Source: a virus. Taken from it: DNA of 49,958 nt. Positions within the stretch are counted from its first letter, which is position 1. Every line of letters begins with the position of its first letter. The translations under genes were made by a program, and so were the position numbers. The notes beneath the pieces were generated by a model that was given only the letters and a program-made list of their open reading frames with translations, searched no databases and was not told the DNA's origin. The DNA is taken from the IMG/VR virus record IMGVR_UViG_3300046466_000125, positions 1 through 49,958 of that record; one strand, written 5' to 3'. Below are positions 8,953 through 48,849 of this stretch, in pieces.

Positions 8953-9971
8953 TGGCACAAATTAATAAACCTAACTTACATTTTAATACTAAACTTTATA
9001 CTGGTAATGGTGGAACACAAGCTGTGACAGGTGTTGGTTTTCAACCAGATTGGGTTTGGATAAAAAATAGAGGTGTCGCAGAAAGTCATGTTTTATTTGA
9101 TGTTTTAAGAGGAGTACAAAAAGCACTAAATAGTGATAGTTCAAGTGCAGAAGCTACATCATCAAATTATTTAACTGCTTTTGGAACTGATGGTTTTACT
9201 GTTGGTGCAAGTGGATTAGTAAATGATAATAGTAATACTTATGCATCATGGAACTGGAAAGCAGGTGGTTCTGGTTCATCAAACTCCGATGGCTCTTTAT
9301 CTGCAACTCTTTCAGCAAATGCAACAGCAGGTTTTTCAGTTTCAACATTTACAACTCCTGGTTCAGGAACATTTACAGTAGGTCATGGTTTGGGAGTAGC
9401 ACCAAAAATGGTTATGTATAGACCAACTGGTTCAAGTTCATGGCAAGTAGGTCACGATAGTTTAGGTTGGACAAATTTTCTTGCTTTAAATAATACTGGT
9501 GCTTCAGCATCTAACACAGCTTTTGGAAATACAGCACCAACAACTTCTGTTTGGACAGGTAATACTGCTAATGTAGGTACTAATGCTCCATGTGTAGCTT
9601 ATTGTTTTTCAGAAATAAAGGGTTATTCAAAATTTGGAAAATCCATAGGAAATGGAGATACTAATGGACCATATGTTTATACTGGATTTAAACCTGCTTT
9701 TGTTTTAGCAAAAAATTCTAGTATAAGTGATTGGTGGTCAATGTTTGATAATAAAAGATTAGGATTTAACTCATCAGATTCTCCTAGATTATTATTTCCA
9801 AATGCAAATTCATCAGAATCAAATTCAAAAATGCTAGATCTTACATCAAATGGTTTTAAAATTAGAAGTTCAAATACTGGAATTAATGGTAATGGAAACA
9901 CAACAATTTACATGGCATTTGCAGAAAACCCGATTGTAGGAACAAATAACATACCGGCAACGGCAGGATAA
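8952..9971 (+). CDS. 'YTGNGGT' fibre protein (cassette copy A, gene 3)
   Basis: A 339-aa beta-rich protein with a diagnostic start, LHFNTKLYTGNGGTQAVTGV followed by GFQPDWVWIKNR, and repeated FGTDGF and NWKAG motifs. A second half-repeat begins near residue 145 (VGHGLGVAPKMVMYR), and the end runs IYMAFAENPIVGTNNIPATAG. I recall this as an unnamed domain common in environmental phage tail proteins. Homologues are at 12091 and 15640; DNA identity with the first is near perfect over 46 bases at the 5' end. It ends two bases before copy B begins. Confidence 0.7.
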   Translation: MAQINKPNLHFNTKLYTGNGGTQAVTGVGFQPDWVWIKNRGVAESHVLFDVLRGVQKALNSDSSSAEATSSNYLTAFGTDGFTVGASGLVNDNSNTYASWNWKAGGSGSSNSDGSLSATLSANATAGFSVSTFTTPGSGTFTVGHGLGVAPKMVMYRPTGSSSWQVGHDSLGWTNFLALNNTGASASNTAFGNTAPTTSVWTGNTANVGTNAPCVAYCFSEIKGYSKFGKSIGNGDTNGPYVYTGFKPAFVLAKNSSISDWWSMFDNKRLGFNSSDSPRLLFPNANSSESNSKMLDLTSNGFKIRSSNTGINGNGNTTIYMAFAENPIVGTNNIPATAG

Positions 9972-12090: not shown

Positions 12091-13131
12091 ATGGCATACT
12101 CAACAATCTCAAAACCTAGCTTACATTTTAATACTAAACTTTATACAGGTAATGGTGGAACACAATCAATTACAGGTGTTGGATTTCAACCTGATTGGGT
12201 ATGGCTTAAAAAAAGAAATAGCACAGCAGATCATGGACTATATGATGCTGTAAGAGGTGTAACAAAACAGTTATATTCTAATGATACAGCAGCAGAGGCT
12301 ACAAATGCTAATTCATTAACAGCTTTTGGAACTGATGGATTTAGTATTGGAACATCATCAATGATTAATGGAAACTCTGATACTTTTGCATCATGGAACT
12401 GGAAAGCAGGAACTGGACAAGGTTCATCAAATACAGATGGTTCTATAAATACTACTTACACTTCTGTTAATACGACAGCAGGTTTTTCTATAAATCAATA
12501 CACAGGTACAGGTGCAACTGCAACAGTTGGGCATGGTTTGGGTGTAGTACCAGATTTTATGATTATAAAAAAATATAGTGCTTCTGGTACTCAATGGACT
12601 ATTTATCATAAACAATTAGGCCCTACTAAACACATACTTTTTACAACTGGAGCAGAAGTTACACAAGCTAATTATTGGAATGACACAGCTCCAACTAATT
12701 TAGTTTGGACTATGGGAAATCAAAGTGAAATAAATGGTAGTGGTACTACTAATATTTGTTATGCTTTTGCAGAAAAAAAAGGCTACTCAAAATTTGGAAG
12801 CTATGTTGGTAATGCAAGTACAAATGGTACATTTATTTACACAGGATTTAAACCAGCTATGGTTATATTAAAAGACTCTACAAGTGTATCAAATTGGATG
12901 ATATATGATAATAAAAGAGAAGGTTACAATGTTGATAATGACCATTTAAAAATAAACAATTCTGATGCAGAAGGTACTTCTGATGATTTGGATATTTTAT
13001 CTAATGGATTTAAATTAAGAACAAGTGGCAATGGAGAAAATAAAGCTAATGCAACTTTTATCTACATGGCAATAGCAGCAGAACCTCTTGTAGCTAATGT
13101 AGGAGCAAGTATACCGGCAACGGCTAGATAA
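12091..13131 (+). CDS. 'YTGNGGT' fibre protein (cassette copy B, gene 3)
   Basis: A 346-aa homologue of the 8952 gene. It opens with KPSLHFNTKLYTGNGGTQ and GFQPDWVWLKKR, keeps the FGTDGFSIG and NWKAGTGQG motifs, has the second half-repeat at VGHGLGVVPDFMIIKK, and ends with SIPATAR. The first 46 bases of homology (12120-12165) differ from copy A (8975-9020) at a single base, while the centre has diverged. That pattern suggests recent exchange of the 5' end. Probable receptor-binding fibre part; function inferred. Confidence 0.7.
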   Translation: MAYSTISKPSLHFNTKLYTGNGGTQSITGVGFQPDWVWLKKRNSTADHGLYDAVRGVTKQLYSNDTAAEATNANSLTAFGTDGFSIGTSSMINGNSDTFASWNWKAGTGQGSSNTDGSINTTYTSVNTTAGFSINQYTGTGATATVGHGLGVVPDFMIIKKYSASGTQWTIYHKQLGPTKHILFTTGAEVTQANYWNDTAPTNLVWTMGNQSEINGSGTTNICYAFAEKKGYSKFGSYVGNASTNGTFIYTGFKPAMVILKDSTSVSNWMIYDNKREGYNVDNDHLKINNSDAEGTSDDLDILSNGFKLRTSGNGENKANATFIYMAIAAEPLVANVGASIPATAR

Positions 13132-15640: not shown

Positions 15641-16701
15641 TGGCATACGCATCAATAGATAAGTCAGCTTTATTTTTTAAAAATAAAAGATTCACTGGAA
15701 ACAATACAAGTGGTCATGCAATCACAGGAGTTGGTTTTCAACCAGATATGGTTTGGTTTAAAAATGCAAGTTCAACACAAAACTGGAGAGCTTTTGATGT
15801 ATTAAGAGGTGCTACTTACAGACTTGTTCCTAATGAAAATTCTGCAAATGCTGCTGAAGCACAACAATTACAAGCATTTGGTTCAGATGGATTTACTGTT
15901 GGTGCAGATGGTTCTGTAAATGGAAACACAGAAACAATGAATGCTTTCTGTTGGAAAGCTGGAACATCTGTGTCTGGAACAACTACAGGCTCTGGAACTG
16001 GTAAAGCATATTCTGGTTCAGTAAGTACAACTGCTGGTTTTTCTATTATAAAATATTTAGGTAATGGTTCTGCTGGACACACAATACCACATCATTTATC
16101 TGCAGTTCCTAAAATGATTATTGTTAAAAAATTAACGTCAGCAGATTGGCAAGTTTATCATGTAGGTATTGGAAATACAAAAAAACTTTCTTTAAATACA
16201 ACTGGTGCTGCTAGTGTTGAAAACACTAGATGGAATAGCACAACACCAACAAGTTCTGTTTTTACTCTTGGTACAAGTGGAAATGTTAATGCAAATGATG
16301 TATCATTTATAGCCTACTGCTTCGCAGAGAAAACTGGTTTTAGTAAGTTTGGTACTTTTGAGGGTAATGGTACAGCATATCCAAATTCACCATTTATTTA
16401 TACAGGTTTTAAACCAAAATTGTTTTTATGGAAAAATGCAGATGATAGTGGTGGAGATGACCATTGGAATTTTGTTGATTCAGAAGCACAACAATACAAT
16501 GCTAGAGATGGTGGTTTTTATTGGTTAGATAGCACTTATACTGAAAGTAATTTTAGTGGAAATGAAATAAATTTCTTATCTAATGGTGTTAAAATAAATC
16601 CAGCATCAGCTTATCACAATCAATCTGGTTCAACATACATCTACATGGCATTTGGCCAAAGCATAGTTGGCAGTAATAATATTCCGGCAACTGCCAGGTA
16701 A
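15640..16701 (+). CDS. 'YTGNGGT'-family fibre protein (cassette copy C, gene 3)
   Basis: A 353-aa member of the same family as the 8952 and 12091 genes, but the most divergent at the start: FKNKRFTGNNTSGHAITGVG, then FQPDMVWFKNAS. It retains FGSDGFTVGADGSVNG, CWKAGT, a second half-repeat (IPHHLSAVPKMIIVKK), PFIYTGFKPKLFLWKN and the common end NIPATAR. It closes the triplicated cassette and is followed by a different type of fibre protein. Confidence 0.7.
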   Translation: MAYASIDKSALFFKNKRFTGNNTSGHAITGVGFQPDMVWFKNASSTQNWRAFDVLRGATYRLVPNENSANAAEAQQLQAFGSDGFTVGADGSVNGNTETMNAFCWKAGTSVSGTTTGSGTGKAYSGSVSTTAGFSIIKYLGNGSAGHTIPHHLSAVPKMIIVKKLTSADWQVYHVGIGNTKKLSLNTTGAASVENTRWNSTTPTSSVFTLGTSGNVNANDVSFIAYCFAEKTGFSKFGTFEGNGTAYPNSPFIYTGFKPKLFLWKNADDSGGDDHWNFVDSEAQQYNARDGGFYWLDSTYTESNFSGNEINFLSNGVKINPASAYHNQSGSTYIYMAFGQSIVGSNNIPATAR

Positions 16702-44564: not shown

Positions 44565-44785
44565 ATGACAACATTAGAAAGGTTCTAAACTACAGATACA
44601 ATGCAGAGATAGAAGACGCAAAGTACAAGATCAAATGTTATAGTGAGCAAGAACTAATTATACCCGAACACCCAGATATTACAGGTGAGATAGACAAATT
44701 ACTTGAAAAAATTGCCCAGGCCGAAGAAAAGATGGCAGTAATAGAGCTACATTATGGCCAAAAAGAGGCAAAGAACATACTATAA
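44561..44785 (+). CDS. Hypothetical coiled-coil protein
   Basis: A 74-aa charged, helical protein (NDNIRKVLNYRYNAEIEDAK, then GEIDKLLEKIAQAEEKMAVI). I chose ATG 44561 with GAGGAGG seven bases upstream rather than the ATG at 44510 inside the preceding frame. Ends at the left arm of a large inverted repeat. No domain recognised; the helical heptads suggest oligomerisation. Confidence 0.5.
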   Translation: MNDNIRKVLNYRYNAEIEDAKYKIKCYSEQELIIPEHPDITGEIDKLLEKIAQAEEKMAVIELHYGQKEAKNIL

Positions 44786-45018
44786 GGGATCTGAAAAGTT
44801 TTAAAAATTTTTTAGAAAAAAAATCAGCAAAAAAAAGTGTACTTTTGTACTTTTGGCTTAAAAGTGTTGGTATTACTAGCTTTAGGGTGGACACTTTTAG
44901 GGACACTTTTTGTTTAGGTGGACAGAAAATAATGTCCACCTATGGGTATATACAAAAAGGCCTTCCGCGAAAGGTTTCAGTTTTGTCTCGTTAGTTCAAA
45001 ACTTTCTAGATCCCTTAT
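44782..45018. other. Inverted-repeat-bounded structured region (candidate RNA or origin)
   Basis: A gene-free 237-base element. Ends 44782-44802 and 44998-45018 are inverted copies over 21 bases with two differences; in RNA one is a G-U pair and one a mismatch. Inside are TAGGTGGACA/TGTCCACCTA (44925-44934 with 44943-44952), TAAAAGTGT/ACACTTTTA (about 44861-44899), a small CCTT/AAGG hairpin near 44970, several ACTTTT or ACACTTTT direct copies and an A/T-rich run. The set would suit a long structured RNA, a terminator array or an AT-rich origin. Nothing identifies which. Confidence 0.5.
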
Positions 45019-45039
45019 GTAAATATGATAGAAGAGATT

Positions 45040-46278: not shown

Positions 46279-46647
46279 ATGGGACCAGAGCGTAAATTAT
46301 ATCAAAAAGTTAAGAATTCTATCGACAATATTTCATGGATTAGGATTGAAAACTTTAGCTTACTTGGTACTCCCGATCTATTGGGCTATAATAATTCTGG
46401 CCACTTTTTCACTGTAGAACTTAAAGTTACGAAGAGTAACAAGGTACGCCTATCTCCACATCAAATTAGCTTCCATGTTAAGCATCCGAAGAATAGTTTT
46501 ATCCTAGTAGAGGCCCTTGGTCAAAGGACCGTGAAACTTTTTCCAGGGTCCAAGGTTCAAGAGCTTGCAGCTTGTGGCTTGGAGCTTGAAGCTTGCAGCG
46601 AAGGGCTTGAAGCTTGTGGCTTGTATCTTTCAAAGCTTGGAGCTTGA
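46279..46647 (+). CDS. VRR-NUC-like nuclease with repeat-derived tail
   Basis: A 122-aa protein. Residues 30-65 match a PD-(D/E)XK pattern: GTPDLLG (Asp33), then FFTVELKV (Glu47, Lys49) and SPHQISFH (His61, Gln62), as in VRR-NUC nucleases. The length is typical up to about residue 92. The remaining 30 residues (QELAACGLELEACSEGLEAC and on) are translated from the GCTTG heptamer repeats, so they are probably an accidental extension of the gene into the repeat. No clear upstream ribosome site. Confidence 0.6.
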   Translation: MGPERKLYQKVKNSIDNISWIRIENFSLLGTPDLLGYNNSGHFFTVELKVTKSNKVRLSPHQISFHVKHPKNSFILVEALGQRTVKLFPGSKVQELAACGLELEACSEGLEACGLYLSKLGA

Positions 46648-46676
46648 CGCTTGAAGCTTGATGCTTGAGGCTTGAA
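46563..46676. repeat. Heptamer tandem repeat array R1 (GCTTGNN)
   Basis: Fourteen copies of GCTTGNN in an almost continuous 7-base register, interrupted once by a degenerate unit (46598-46604) and once by nine other bases (46626-46634). It lies in the 3' part of the VRR-NUC-like gene and beyond it. The unit reappears in R2. The variable last two bases are mostly AA, CA, TG or GA. No function can be assigned from sequence. Confidence 0.85.
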
Positions 46677-46761
46677 GGCCCGGACCAGGTGCACGCTACC
46701 ATTACACCCGTCGGCTAAAGTTAAGCTAATGACCTGATCCGATATTCCACGCGGGAATTTT

Positions 46762-47364
46762 TTAATGTTTTCCATAACTAACAGTTTTGATTGAGGCGTC
46801 CCAGCATTGTCTGCAGTCTCTGCACTCATTGTTTTGTTTAGGGGCCGGGCAGCTGGCGTTGCTGTTAACAACCTCCGAACTGTTAGGCCACGAAGCAGGC
46901 GCCCGCTGGTCAACCATGGGCGCGCTAAATCGTATGACTAAATTGTCAGGCTTGCCATCGAGGTGATCTTTGATCCAAGCTTCTCGAGTTGGCATCCAAT
47001 GCTTTTTTGTAGGTGTTAATCTACAGACTTCATAAATTTTGTTTAAATGATCTAGATCTTGAACGTCGCCGCTGTCGTGCCATCTAAAAACATCCGGCTT
47101 TTTACTGTTGATCAGGTGAGCCATTGCCTGGACCCAGTCCGAGCTCTTCAACGCTTCCAGCCTTCGATACTGTGCGTCCTGAACAACCTTGAAGACATAA
47201 CAGCCCTTGAGCGCATAACAGTCGAAGCATACGCTGCCCGGGACCTTCTGAAGCTTGCCGCCGGTCTTGCATTCTTTGGCAGGTAAACCTATCGACCAGC
47301 CAGGCATCTTTGACGGTTTGCTTAGGCTGCCTCCTATAATTTTTAATGCTTCATCTGTTTTCAT
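46762..47364 (-). CDS. GP88-like protein (minus strand)
   Basis: A 200-aa protein resembling, as I recall, the mycobacteriophage gene 88 family: KMPGWSIGLPAKECKTGGKL, then GSVCFDCYALKGCY and VFRWHDSGDVQDLDHLNKIY. It has a dense cysteine pattern, including a C-terminal cluster (SCPAPKQNNECRDCRQC), suggesting metal binding. It is GC-richer than its neighbours and is flanked by heptamer arrays on both sides, consistent with a horizontally acquired cassette. It has AAGGAG before the ATG and a promoter at 47385-47413. The biochemical role of the family is unknown. Confidence 0.6.
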   Translation of the reverse strand: MKTDEALKIIGGSLSKPSKMPGWSIGLPAKECKTGGKLQKVPGSVCFDCYALKGCYVFKVVQDAQYRRLEALKSSDWVQAMAHLINSKKPDVFRWHDSGDVQDLDHLNKIYEVCRLTPTKKHWMPTREAWIKDHLDGKPDNLVIRFSAPMVDQRAPASWPNSSEVVNSNASCPAPKQNNECRDCRQCWDASIKTVSYGKH

Positions 47365-47384
47365 AATTCTTTCTCCTTGATTCT

Positions 47385-47413
47385 CCTATAACACCATATA
47401 AACGTCTTGTCAA
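47385..47413 (-). promoter_or_regulatory. Minus-strand promoter for the GP88-like gene
   Basis: On the minus strand, TTGACA (complement of 47408-47413) is 17 bases from TATAGG (complement of 47385-47390). A leader of about 14 bases leads to an AAGGAG site and ATG 47364. The -35 box touches repeat array R2. Confidence 0.55.
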
Positions 47414-47455
47414 GCTTGCTGCTTGACGCTTGCAGCTTGCGGCTTGTTGCTTGGT
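47414..47455. repeat. Heptamer tandem repeat array R2 (GCTTGNN)
   Basis: Six perfect, uninterrupted copies of GCTTGNN in 7-base register, in the same orientation as R1. Array R1 and R2 flank the GP88-like gene at 86 and 49 bases. The first unit abuts the gene's promoter. Confidence 0.85.
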
Positions 47456-47871
47456 TCCATTAACTTGCAGCCAGCGCCAATGGTTAATTAAAATTACTGG
47501 GCTCTCAATTCTTCTACTCATAATTCCTTTCTTGTGGTTGATGGGTGCATGCCCCTTAAAGCAGTCAACCGCCGCTCAATGACCAGTAACCGCCCGCTAC
47601 TAGCTAACGTGGGTTTCTGTTACCGATCCCAGGTCCTCTTCACACAATCGGATCTATAGACCGAAGCACTAATAGGACCAGGGATCAGTCCTCTGGATTA
47701 CAAAGACGGCCAACTAGTGGCGGTGTGATGCAACCCGAGGTTGTCCCGTAGATTTATAGTTATGTTCAGCGATAAATCTACAAATGAAGCTGATAATCAT
47801 ATATAGTCCTTGACAATCCTATTGTCAAGTGTTAAAAACAAATCATGCAAAATAAAACAGAAAGAGGAAAA
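47456..47871. other. Gene-free, structured region (candidate RNA 2)
   Basis: From 47456 to 47871 no gene is seen. Stems visible on the plus strand are: GGTTGA/TCAACC (47536-47541 with 47565-47570) enclosing a GGG/CCC hairpin with a GCATGC loop; GATCCC-A-GGTCCT with AGGACC-A-GGGATC (47625-47637 with 47674-47686), whose inner TCGG/CCGA hairpin has a TCTATAGA loop; GCCA/TGGC near 47709-47721; CAACC/GGTTG (47731-47743); and GTAGATTTAT/ATAAATCTAC (47748-47757 with 47772-47781). Six consecutive hairpins suggest a long folded RNA. It lies upstream of the 47872 gene's promoter. Confidence 0.5.
47809..47829. promoter_or_regulatory. Palindromic operator-like promoter
   Basis: CTTGACAAT, three bases, then ATTGTCAAG form a perfect inverted repeat. 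On the plus strand TTGACA (47810-47815) is 17 bases from TAAAAA (47833-47838), and ATG 47845 lies 35 bases from its first base. On the minus strand TTGACA is 17 bases from TATATA (complement of 47800-47805). A dimeric regulator or a divergent promoter pair would both fit. Confidence 0.5.
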
Positions 47872-48849
47872 ATGACTAGATTAAGACTAAATCAAGAATA
47901 CCGAAACAAGATAGCAAATAGAATGAGGGTACACCTTGAACAAGAGGACACGCAAGAAAAACAAAAGTATGATGAACTGAAAGCAAATCAGATTGACTTA
48001 AATGACAATGCGTGGAAAACTGCTGAACAAATAGTAAGACGACACTATACCGAAGATGATGTTGAGAAAGCATACTATCTTCAAAATAAATTTGAGAATG
48101 TTTCTACTATTGCAAAAGATAGTTGTTTTCATTTTCATTATATGGGCGAGAAAGAGGAACGAGATTATGATAACAATGTTAAGATTGTTCCAAGTACCAT
48201 TGAGAAACATTTTGATTTTAGATTAAATGGTACTATTGATATTGAAAGCAATTCTTCTTATTCAAATGACAATGATTATGGTTATGCTTTATTTCGTGAT
48301 GAACTAAAAGCACAGGAAGATTGCAACCCAGATATTTTGATTGAACAAGAGGGCAAAGATAACAACCCACACAAAACAAAATATACTGACAATAACAATA
48401 AGTATCTTGGAAATGATGATAGTAGTTATGGCAAACAATGGAATGAAAAATATCAATTAGATTTAATTGGTAGAGATTATTGTAGAGATAGGTCTATTGC
48501 TTGTACTGAACAAGAGTTTAACTTTTTAATTTCTTGGAAACAGGCAAAAGGTCAATTTGTTGTTGCACACCAAAAATGGATTAAATCTGTTTTAGACCAG
48601 ATGAAAGAAATTAAAGTTGGTTTAAAAGGTTATAAATATTTAGACGAGGCACTAGAACTTTGTACTGAACTTGGTTTAAATATTACTGACGCAGAAATAA
48701 TTAGAACTAATAGTACAGGGCTAGTTATCTATAATCCTAAAAATCTTGCTGAAAGAATTAAAGGCATGAAGAACAAAAATCAATCAAGAGCAGATAAAAT
48801 TAAAGCGAGGTTATTATACGAAAACAATAATGCAGAAAGTGTAAATTAA
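47872..48849 (+). CDS. Hypothetical early protein
   Basis: A 325-aa soluble, charged protein. I chose ATG 47872 because GAGG lies close upstream; the in-frame ATG at 47845 (nine more residues) is also possible and lies exactly at the predicted leaderless start. The N-terminal 60 residues are helical (YRNKIANRMRVHLEQEDTQE). The middle is Asn/Asp/Tyr-rich (SYSNDNDYGYALFRDELKAQ), and residues about 215-315 look like an alpha/beta domain (AKGQFVVAHQKWIKSVLDQM). I recall similar 330-aa proteins in marine phages without function. Confidence 0.55.
   Translation: MTRLRLNQEYRNKIANRMRVHLEQEDTQEKQKYDELKANQIDLNDNAWKTAEQIVRRHYTEDDVEKAYYLQNKFENVSTIAKDSCFHFHYMGEKEERDYDNNVKIVPSTIEKHFDFRLNGTIDIESNSSYSNDNDYGYALFRDELKAQEDCNPDILIEQEGKDNNPHKTKYTDNNNKYLGNDDSSYGKQWNEKYQLDLIGRDYCRDRSIACTEQEFNFLISWKQAKGQFVVAHQKWIKSVLDQMKEIKVGLKGYKYLDEALELCTELGLNITDAEIIRTNSTGLVIYNPKNLAERIKGMKNKNQSRADKIKARLLYENNNAESVN

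Follow-up and report, generated by a model that had tools for sequence, protein, structure and literature searches.

A putative modular, hypervariable structured RNA with self-complementary hairpin tips in HTVC027P-like pelagiphages

The dimerization initiation site (DIS) of HIV-1 presents a short palindrome in an apical loop, and the packaging RNA (pRNA) of phage phi29 is a phage RNA that keeps its structure while its sequence drifts, with contacts between copies in which a right loop pairs with a left one and neither is self-complementary. GOLLD, ROOL and OLE are described as ornate homo-oligomers made of RNA only, the first two having their genes in phages and prophages; palindrome switching in the loops of OLE and GOLLD was taken there as evidence for contact between copies (PMC12286853). 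Based on comparison of an intergenic array of hairpins with its relatives, we consider it rather probable that HTVC027P-like pelagiphages encode a modular, hypervariable structured RNA whose palindromic loops would engage in homotypic kissing, pairing with the RNA's own copies. In the partly available literature on Flavobacterium-1 RNA, on structured RNAs of Pelagibacter or pelagiphages and on palindromic kissing phage RNAs, we found no description of this locus.

The locus and its neighboring genes

The window, by which we mean the whole stretch of DNA analyzed, is a 49,958-base virus record and an HTVC027P-like pelagiphage contig. Because no phage record other than that of Pelagibacter phage HTVC027P resembled this part of the window at the DNA level, we infer a SAR11 host, and the phage would thus probably infect the commonest bacteria of the ocean. 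The locus comprises the 480-base intergenic region at 47365-47844, with a GP88-like gene (46762-47364, minus strand; Pfam PF17338) on one side and a 334-aa ORF (47845-48849, plus strand), divergent from the array and assigned no family by Pfam or PHROG, on the other. A small ORF of 56 aa (MSRRIESPVILINHWRWLQ...; 47351-47521, minus strand) has the ribosome-binding site AAAGGA at 47530-47525, and HTVC027P gp34 is its positional counterpart; in HTVC027P the interval that corresponds to the whole intergenic region sits between the small and large terminase genes. Repeats of ~7 bases (GCTTGAA-like, with AAGCTT) flank GP88 at 46560-46680 and 47405-47453, the right-hand set lying inside the small ORF, where it is translated as KQQAASCKRQAAS-like residues. 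The predicted fold of GP88 was uninformative (mean pLDDT 77; 0 Foldseek matches in the PDB at E <= 0.001), and by sequence no solved relative was found (best E 0.67). Protein coding by the hairpin region was rejected, the longest internal minus-strand ORF being only 28 aa, and ARAGORN reported 0 tRNA or tmRNA genes in the window.

Relatives came from a scan with the 334-aa protein (371 relatives, 80 loci kept) and from a pattern scan for the hairpin, which gave at least 120 stretches and added loci to the pool. The 201 pooled loci were reduced to 167 with a usable GP88 start (34 left out) and, after dereplication, to 143, all taken as stretches upstream of GP88. A motif homologous to the small ORF was present in 37 of the 143, and where the sequence reached far enough, almost every locus had a GP88 homologue downstream and on the same strand. 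GP88 as an obligatory partner was nonetheless rejected, as five loci (L104, L115, L138, L148, L159) lack it across at least 3 kb downstream and do carry the hairpin; conversely, HTVC033P, CRP-171 and Seuss have GP88 and lack hairpin B, described below, in the stretches examined.

A sigma70-like promoter on the minus strand (47800-47828; -35 TTGACA at 47828-47823, 17-nt spacer, -10 TATATA at 47805-47800) points into the array, divergent to the 334-aa ORF, and a comparable site (TTGAC-N16-18-TATA, at most 70 nt from that ORF) was found in 45 of 53 dereplicated intervals. At 47800-47838, the promoter of the array has an inverted repeat (CTTGACAATCCTATTGTCAAG) in common with the region where the 334-aa ORF starts, with -35 boxes in both directions. 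In four loci (L019, L034, L051, L066), the structured 5' element is missing and its place immediately after the array promoter is taken by a gene for a small protein (MNRHKKIEVETLSDNF... or similar).

The position of the array, directly upstream of the small ORF and GP88 on the same strand, would also suit a cis-acting structured leader of these two genes that controls translation or mRNA stability, with the palindromes as a side effect. As no terminator has been established ahead of the small ORF, the RNA of the array may be such a leader; moreover, in the available part of the HTVC027P transcription study, gp33 (GP88) and gp34 form an extra temporal expression cluster that is high at 6-9 h (PMC12753301), and both lie downstream of the array on the same strand in that phage. 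Against this, GP88 has a separate promoter of its own (TTGACA-17-TATAGG; 47385-47413, minus strand), many loci have an extra promoter (TTGACA-17-TAGGAT) between array and small ORF, the five loci without GP88 still bear the hairpin, and the switching palindromes described below are left unexplained. We therefore regard a leader as an unlikely explanation for the whole, and prefer a self-pairing RNA. The main text of PMC12753301, as far as available, does not mention an intergenic RNA, nor does it contain the words 'intergenic' or 'noncoding'. Its infection RNA-seq used directional libraries and the data are deposited (BioProject PRJNA1253180), so that with HTVC027P as a cultured relative among SAR11 phages, transcription is testable at once.

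Exchangeable modules and covarying pairs

Between the two genes lie 365 to 1496 bases, almost wholly different from locus to locus while the proteins stay much alike; the flanking genes are 80-98% alike while modules swap. The central hairpin of the window recurs with 100% identity over 65 bases in one locus (L069), and a 341-base piece of the interval has 72% identity in another (L080). As shown by this comparison, the putative RNA chain is built from exchangeable modules. The predicted Flavobacterium-1 RNA (Rfam RF02976) is one of them: it was found on the same strand in sibling loci, namely HTVC027P (L002, 90.2 bits) and L201 (104.3 bits), and by BLAST also in L117. L201, which has this RNA at 652-771, is 6.5 kb long and comes from a single-cell genome named Flavobacterium; since this contig carries GP88 and hairpin B, we take it to be phage DNA, irrespective of the host infected. 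With the same RNA in HTVC027P, the name of the family may derive from phage DNA, and an Rfam family is now placed in a phage context. The window itself gave no match at gathering score to Rfam 15 over its whole length and none up to E 10 in 47365-47850, and it matched neither the covariance models of GOLLD, ROOL and OLE nor that of Flavobacterium-1. A search with the sequence of the RNA gave no match among isolates (50,697 phage records) or plasmids (72,556 records). A scan of cellular genomes for the hairpin returned 13 stretches, with GP88 in L201 only; the other 12 were judged to be chance, on the sole criterion that they are without GP88.

A widespread module is hairpin B (47623-47688, minus strand), which has a constant base (CUGAUCCCUG...CUGGGAUCGG) with a U-U mismatch. 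It was present in 133 of the 143 loci, a figure that overstates its frequency since the pool was partly selected by the hairpin pattern itself, with one copy in 70 loci, two in 54 and three in 9; together these copies amount to 205 hairpins with 195 distinct interiors. In the dereplicated intervals chosen by the 334-aa ORF, its frequency, scored as the recurrent element CTGATCCCTG...CTGGGATCAG, was 44 of 53. So many interiors, together with module exchange, the strong promoter and the small protein gene that occupies this place in some loci, could also be expected of an RNA acting in trans as a decoy, sponge or counter-defence, with variable tips that bind host or rival targets, an arms race driving the variability. 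Such targets would not demand self-complementary tips, and we consider this improbable, more so than a leader.

Comparison shows stem B to be a predicted helix with compensatory changes. Across pairs 11-18 of 196 distinct hairpins, 1350 pairs were Watson-Crick, 147 G-U, 13 A-C and 58 other, making 95.5% paired, vs. 34-43% with slid partners and 66% under independence. The earlier note had proposed a new structured RNA here, to be given up if homologues lacked compensatory changes; such change turned out to be massive. Its 13-position stem is likewise real, and on the plus strand (GATCCCAGGTCCT / AGGACCAGGGATC) does have an A-A mismatch, but the RNA strand is the minus strand and the mismatch U-U. 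At this position (pair 9), 197 distinct hairpins had TT in 184, TA in 8, AT in 4 and CT in 1, and never A-A; in the window, the GATCGG arm gives a C-A clash if read on plus but a U-G pair if read on minus. The comparison thus shows the predicted RNA to run on the minus strand, that of GP88, since G-U far exceeds A-C and the U-U mismatch prevails (184/197).

The same bias bears on a DNA element, such as an attC-like recombination hairpin or a packaging or replication site, in which dyad symmetry would be read in DNA. Conserved ends with a variable center, module exchange and, in HTVC027P, a location flanked by the terminase genes would agree with such an element. However, an attC-like hairpin has no one-strand preference for G-U, which here outnumbers A-C (147 vs. 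13), the fixed orientation with its U-U mismatch favors RNA as well, and the palindromes are centered at the hairpin apex and have many different sequences. We consider a DNA element very improbable.

Consecutive hairpins are present at 47530-47790, as claimed before, and the predicted fold of this region is more stable than that of dinucleotide shuffles (z -3.7 plus, -3.1 minus); for the minus-strand RNA at 47793-47525, z was -2.9, with 0 of 200 shuffles as good. Not all of the six are plain hairpins, the 5' element being a putative H-type pseudoknot (47748-47793, minus strand) that had been overlooked, in which UCAGC (47793-47789) pairs with the loop GCUGA (47770-47766) of the hairpin at 47781-47748. 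Its partners covary among the loci: in 13 distinct forms, located by linkers alone, 61 of the 65 cells are paired, vs. a mean of 40 and a maximum of 52 with shuffled partners; variants include GGGCC/GGCCC, GAAGC/GCUUC, GAGGC/GCCUC, GGUGC/GCACC, GCGCC/GGCGC and others. Another pattern, for which the upstream partner was picked by search as the best available, yielded 21 forms, so that the 13-form count is the fairer one. Folding by chance in GC-rich sequence, for which it could be said that the palindrome count of the window equals expectation and that other intergenic stretches of the window fold well too, is refuted by the compensatory change in stem B and the pseudoknot and can be dismissed almost outright.

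Elsewhere in the window, the stretch at 44780-45030, which may be the RNA 1 of the earlier note, is intergenic, is closed by the inverted repeat ATAAGGGATCT...AGATCCCTTAT, folds strongly (z -4.7 plus, -5.4 minus over 44786-45024) and has full-length similarity to L062 (81%), L089 (76%) and L147 (73%). Successive genes at 8967-9265, 12112-12410 and 15715-15922 contain repeated segments ~3.1-3.6 kb apart that are 70-82% alike.

Self-complementary tips of the hairpins

The palindromes GCATGC (47547-47552), TCTATAGA (47653-47660) and ACTAGT (47713-47718) of the window lie in or at hairpin apices, as had been reported, and there is a fourth, TAGCTA (47601-47606). In the 269-nt RNA of the window, the number of 6-nt palindromes (4 vs. 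3.8 ± 1.9 in shuffles) is at chance level; the palindromes become significant only through comparison with relatives.

Among distinct apical loops of hairpin B with 6-14 nt, 22 of 98 contained a self-complementary 6-mer, vs. 6.4 ± 2.4 by permutation, the other 76 having no palindrome. The excess persisted in a nonredundant set (20/90 vs. 5.7 expected), upon exclusion of the D motif described next (15/84 vs. 5.1), and in loops outside hairpin B (25/267 vs. 13.6 ± 3.4). All five controls were near expectation, as evidenced by: 1) three sets with shuffled interiors (13/134, 7/108 and 3/126, with 8.2, 5.5 and 5.9 expected); 2) coding DNA of the window (18/447 vs. 23.9); and 3) shuffled flanks (17/339 vs. 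14.4). The cleanest case for palindromic tips, as predicted from these comparisons, is the D motif inside hairpin B (UAUUAGUG...GUGAAGAG; 47636-47674, minus strand), the apical palindrome of which is UCUAUAGA at 47660-47653. When hairpins with this motif (UAUUA[GC]UG...GAAGAG) were selected by their flanks only, 20 of 23 distinct interiors had a palindrome of at least 6 nt, vs. 7.3 ± 2.3 by permutation. These palindromes comprise eight different 6-mers with all four self-complementary center dinucleotides, and are centered at 0.44 ± 0.07 of the interior, vs. 0.51 ± 0.23 in shuffles.

Of the 64 palindromes that 6 nt allow, B interiors as a whole contain 59. When related interiors were compared, the palindromic site was identical in 64 cases and altered in 211; a palindrome was kept in 28 of 88 cases with two changes and 12 of 28 with four, vs. 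about 7% and 2% expected at random by our own arithmetic, these comparisons not being mutually independent and many palindromes being lost between relatives. Cases with one, three or five changes (42, 45 and 8) cannot keep a palindrome. There were eleven distinct palindrome switches, eight of which connect interiors that are 70% alike or more. The suggestion of self-complementary loops as a principle is thus supported across this family, in B loops, in D interiors and in the double changes that keep the palindrome; enrichment and co-variation of predicted apical palindromes are shown by comparison. Recognizing that adjacent bases cannot pair within one chain, we infer from palindrome switching a contact between copies, in which palindromic loops would form homotypic kissing contacts. 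Kissing between two hairpins of one RNA was considered but is not supported: in only 1 of 33 loci with two palindromic hairpins is the 6-mer shared, which makes contact within one RNA unlikely.

The individual tips of the window fare differently. TCTATAGA is well backed. In hairpin F (47536-47570, minus strand), the loop palindrome GCAUGC (47552-47547) has moderate backing, as it is replaced by GCGCGC with a compensated stem in L197/L147 and broken in L024. Helix A (47690-47740, minus strand) has a sub-hairpin (47723-47707) with ACTAGT in its loop (47718-47713), and this palindrome is not backed, the sub-hairpin being palindromic in 4 of 14 alleles only and the palindrome lost in 10. Hairpin E (47586-47623, minus strand) has UAGCUA (47606-47601), and each of the four alleles in its frame has a 6-nt palindrome (UAGCUA twice, CCGCGG and CACUAGUG); L152 and L088 matched the pattern but were excluded, as they are without the CCC/GGGC arms.

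Proposed assembly and described counterparts

For the self-pairing RNA that we prefer, we postulate that the RNA would be read leftwards, on the minus strand of the window, from the strong promoter divergent to the 334-aa ORF, with the 5' H-type pseudoknot followed by helices A, B, E and F, the small ORF and GP88. Capped by the pseudoknot, the RNA would present self-complementary tips and pair with its own copies, as a dimer or in a multi-loop network. With less assurance, we surmise that the tips have diversified into lineage-specific sequences because each RNA must recognize only itself. A further step, which we entertain only tentatively, is a recombining library of hairpins, each with a constant base and a lineage-specific self-complementary tip, by which an RNA would assemble only with its own kind and the tips would be its identity tag. 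If true, this tag might serve a lineage-specific RNA particle, or the telling of self from a co-infecting phage.

The array resembles the HIV-1 DIS in having a palindrome in an apical loop, some loops being similar (AA-CCAUGG, GCGCGC-A). As regards a 6-nt apical palindrome kept by compensatory change, by which a DIS-type kissing loop would be known, the picture is mixed: it holds for the family as a whole, but in the window for TCTATAGA, partly for GCATGC and not for ACTAGT. The two differ in that the DIS belongs to another virus, shares no sequence family with the array and has few palindromes where the array has many, and a dimer would here be our reading of sequence. Like phi29 pRNA, the array would be a phage RNA that keeps its structure despite sequence drift, with contacts between copies that are here proposed; as for the role of pRNA in the packaging motor, the one observation here is that the HTVC027P locus is flanked by the two terminase genes. 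With GOLLD, ROOL and OLE, insofar as the available text describes them, the array shares encoding by phages (GOLLD, ROOL) and palindrome switching, and the kissing loops that are homomeric there may be so here. Those RNAs are larger and fixed in architecture, whereas the pelagiphage RNA, known from sequence alone, appears modular with hypervariable tips. Few homo-oligomers of RNA occur in nature, with designs that are fixed as far as known, and a large, recombining family with switching palindromes would amount to a natural experiment on RNA self-recognition.
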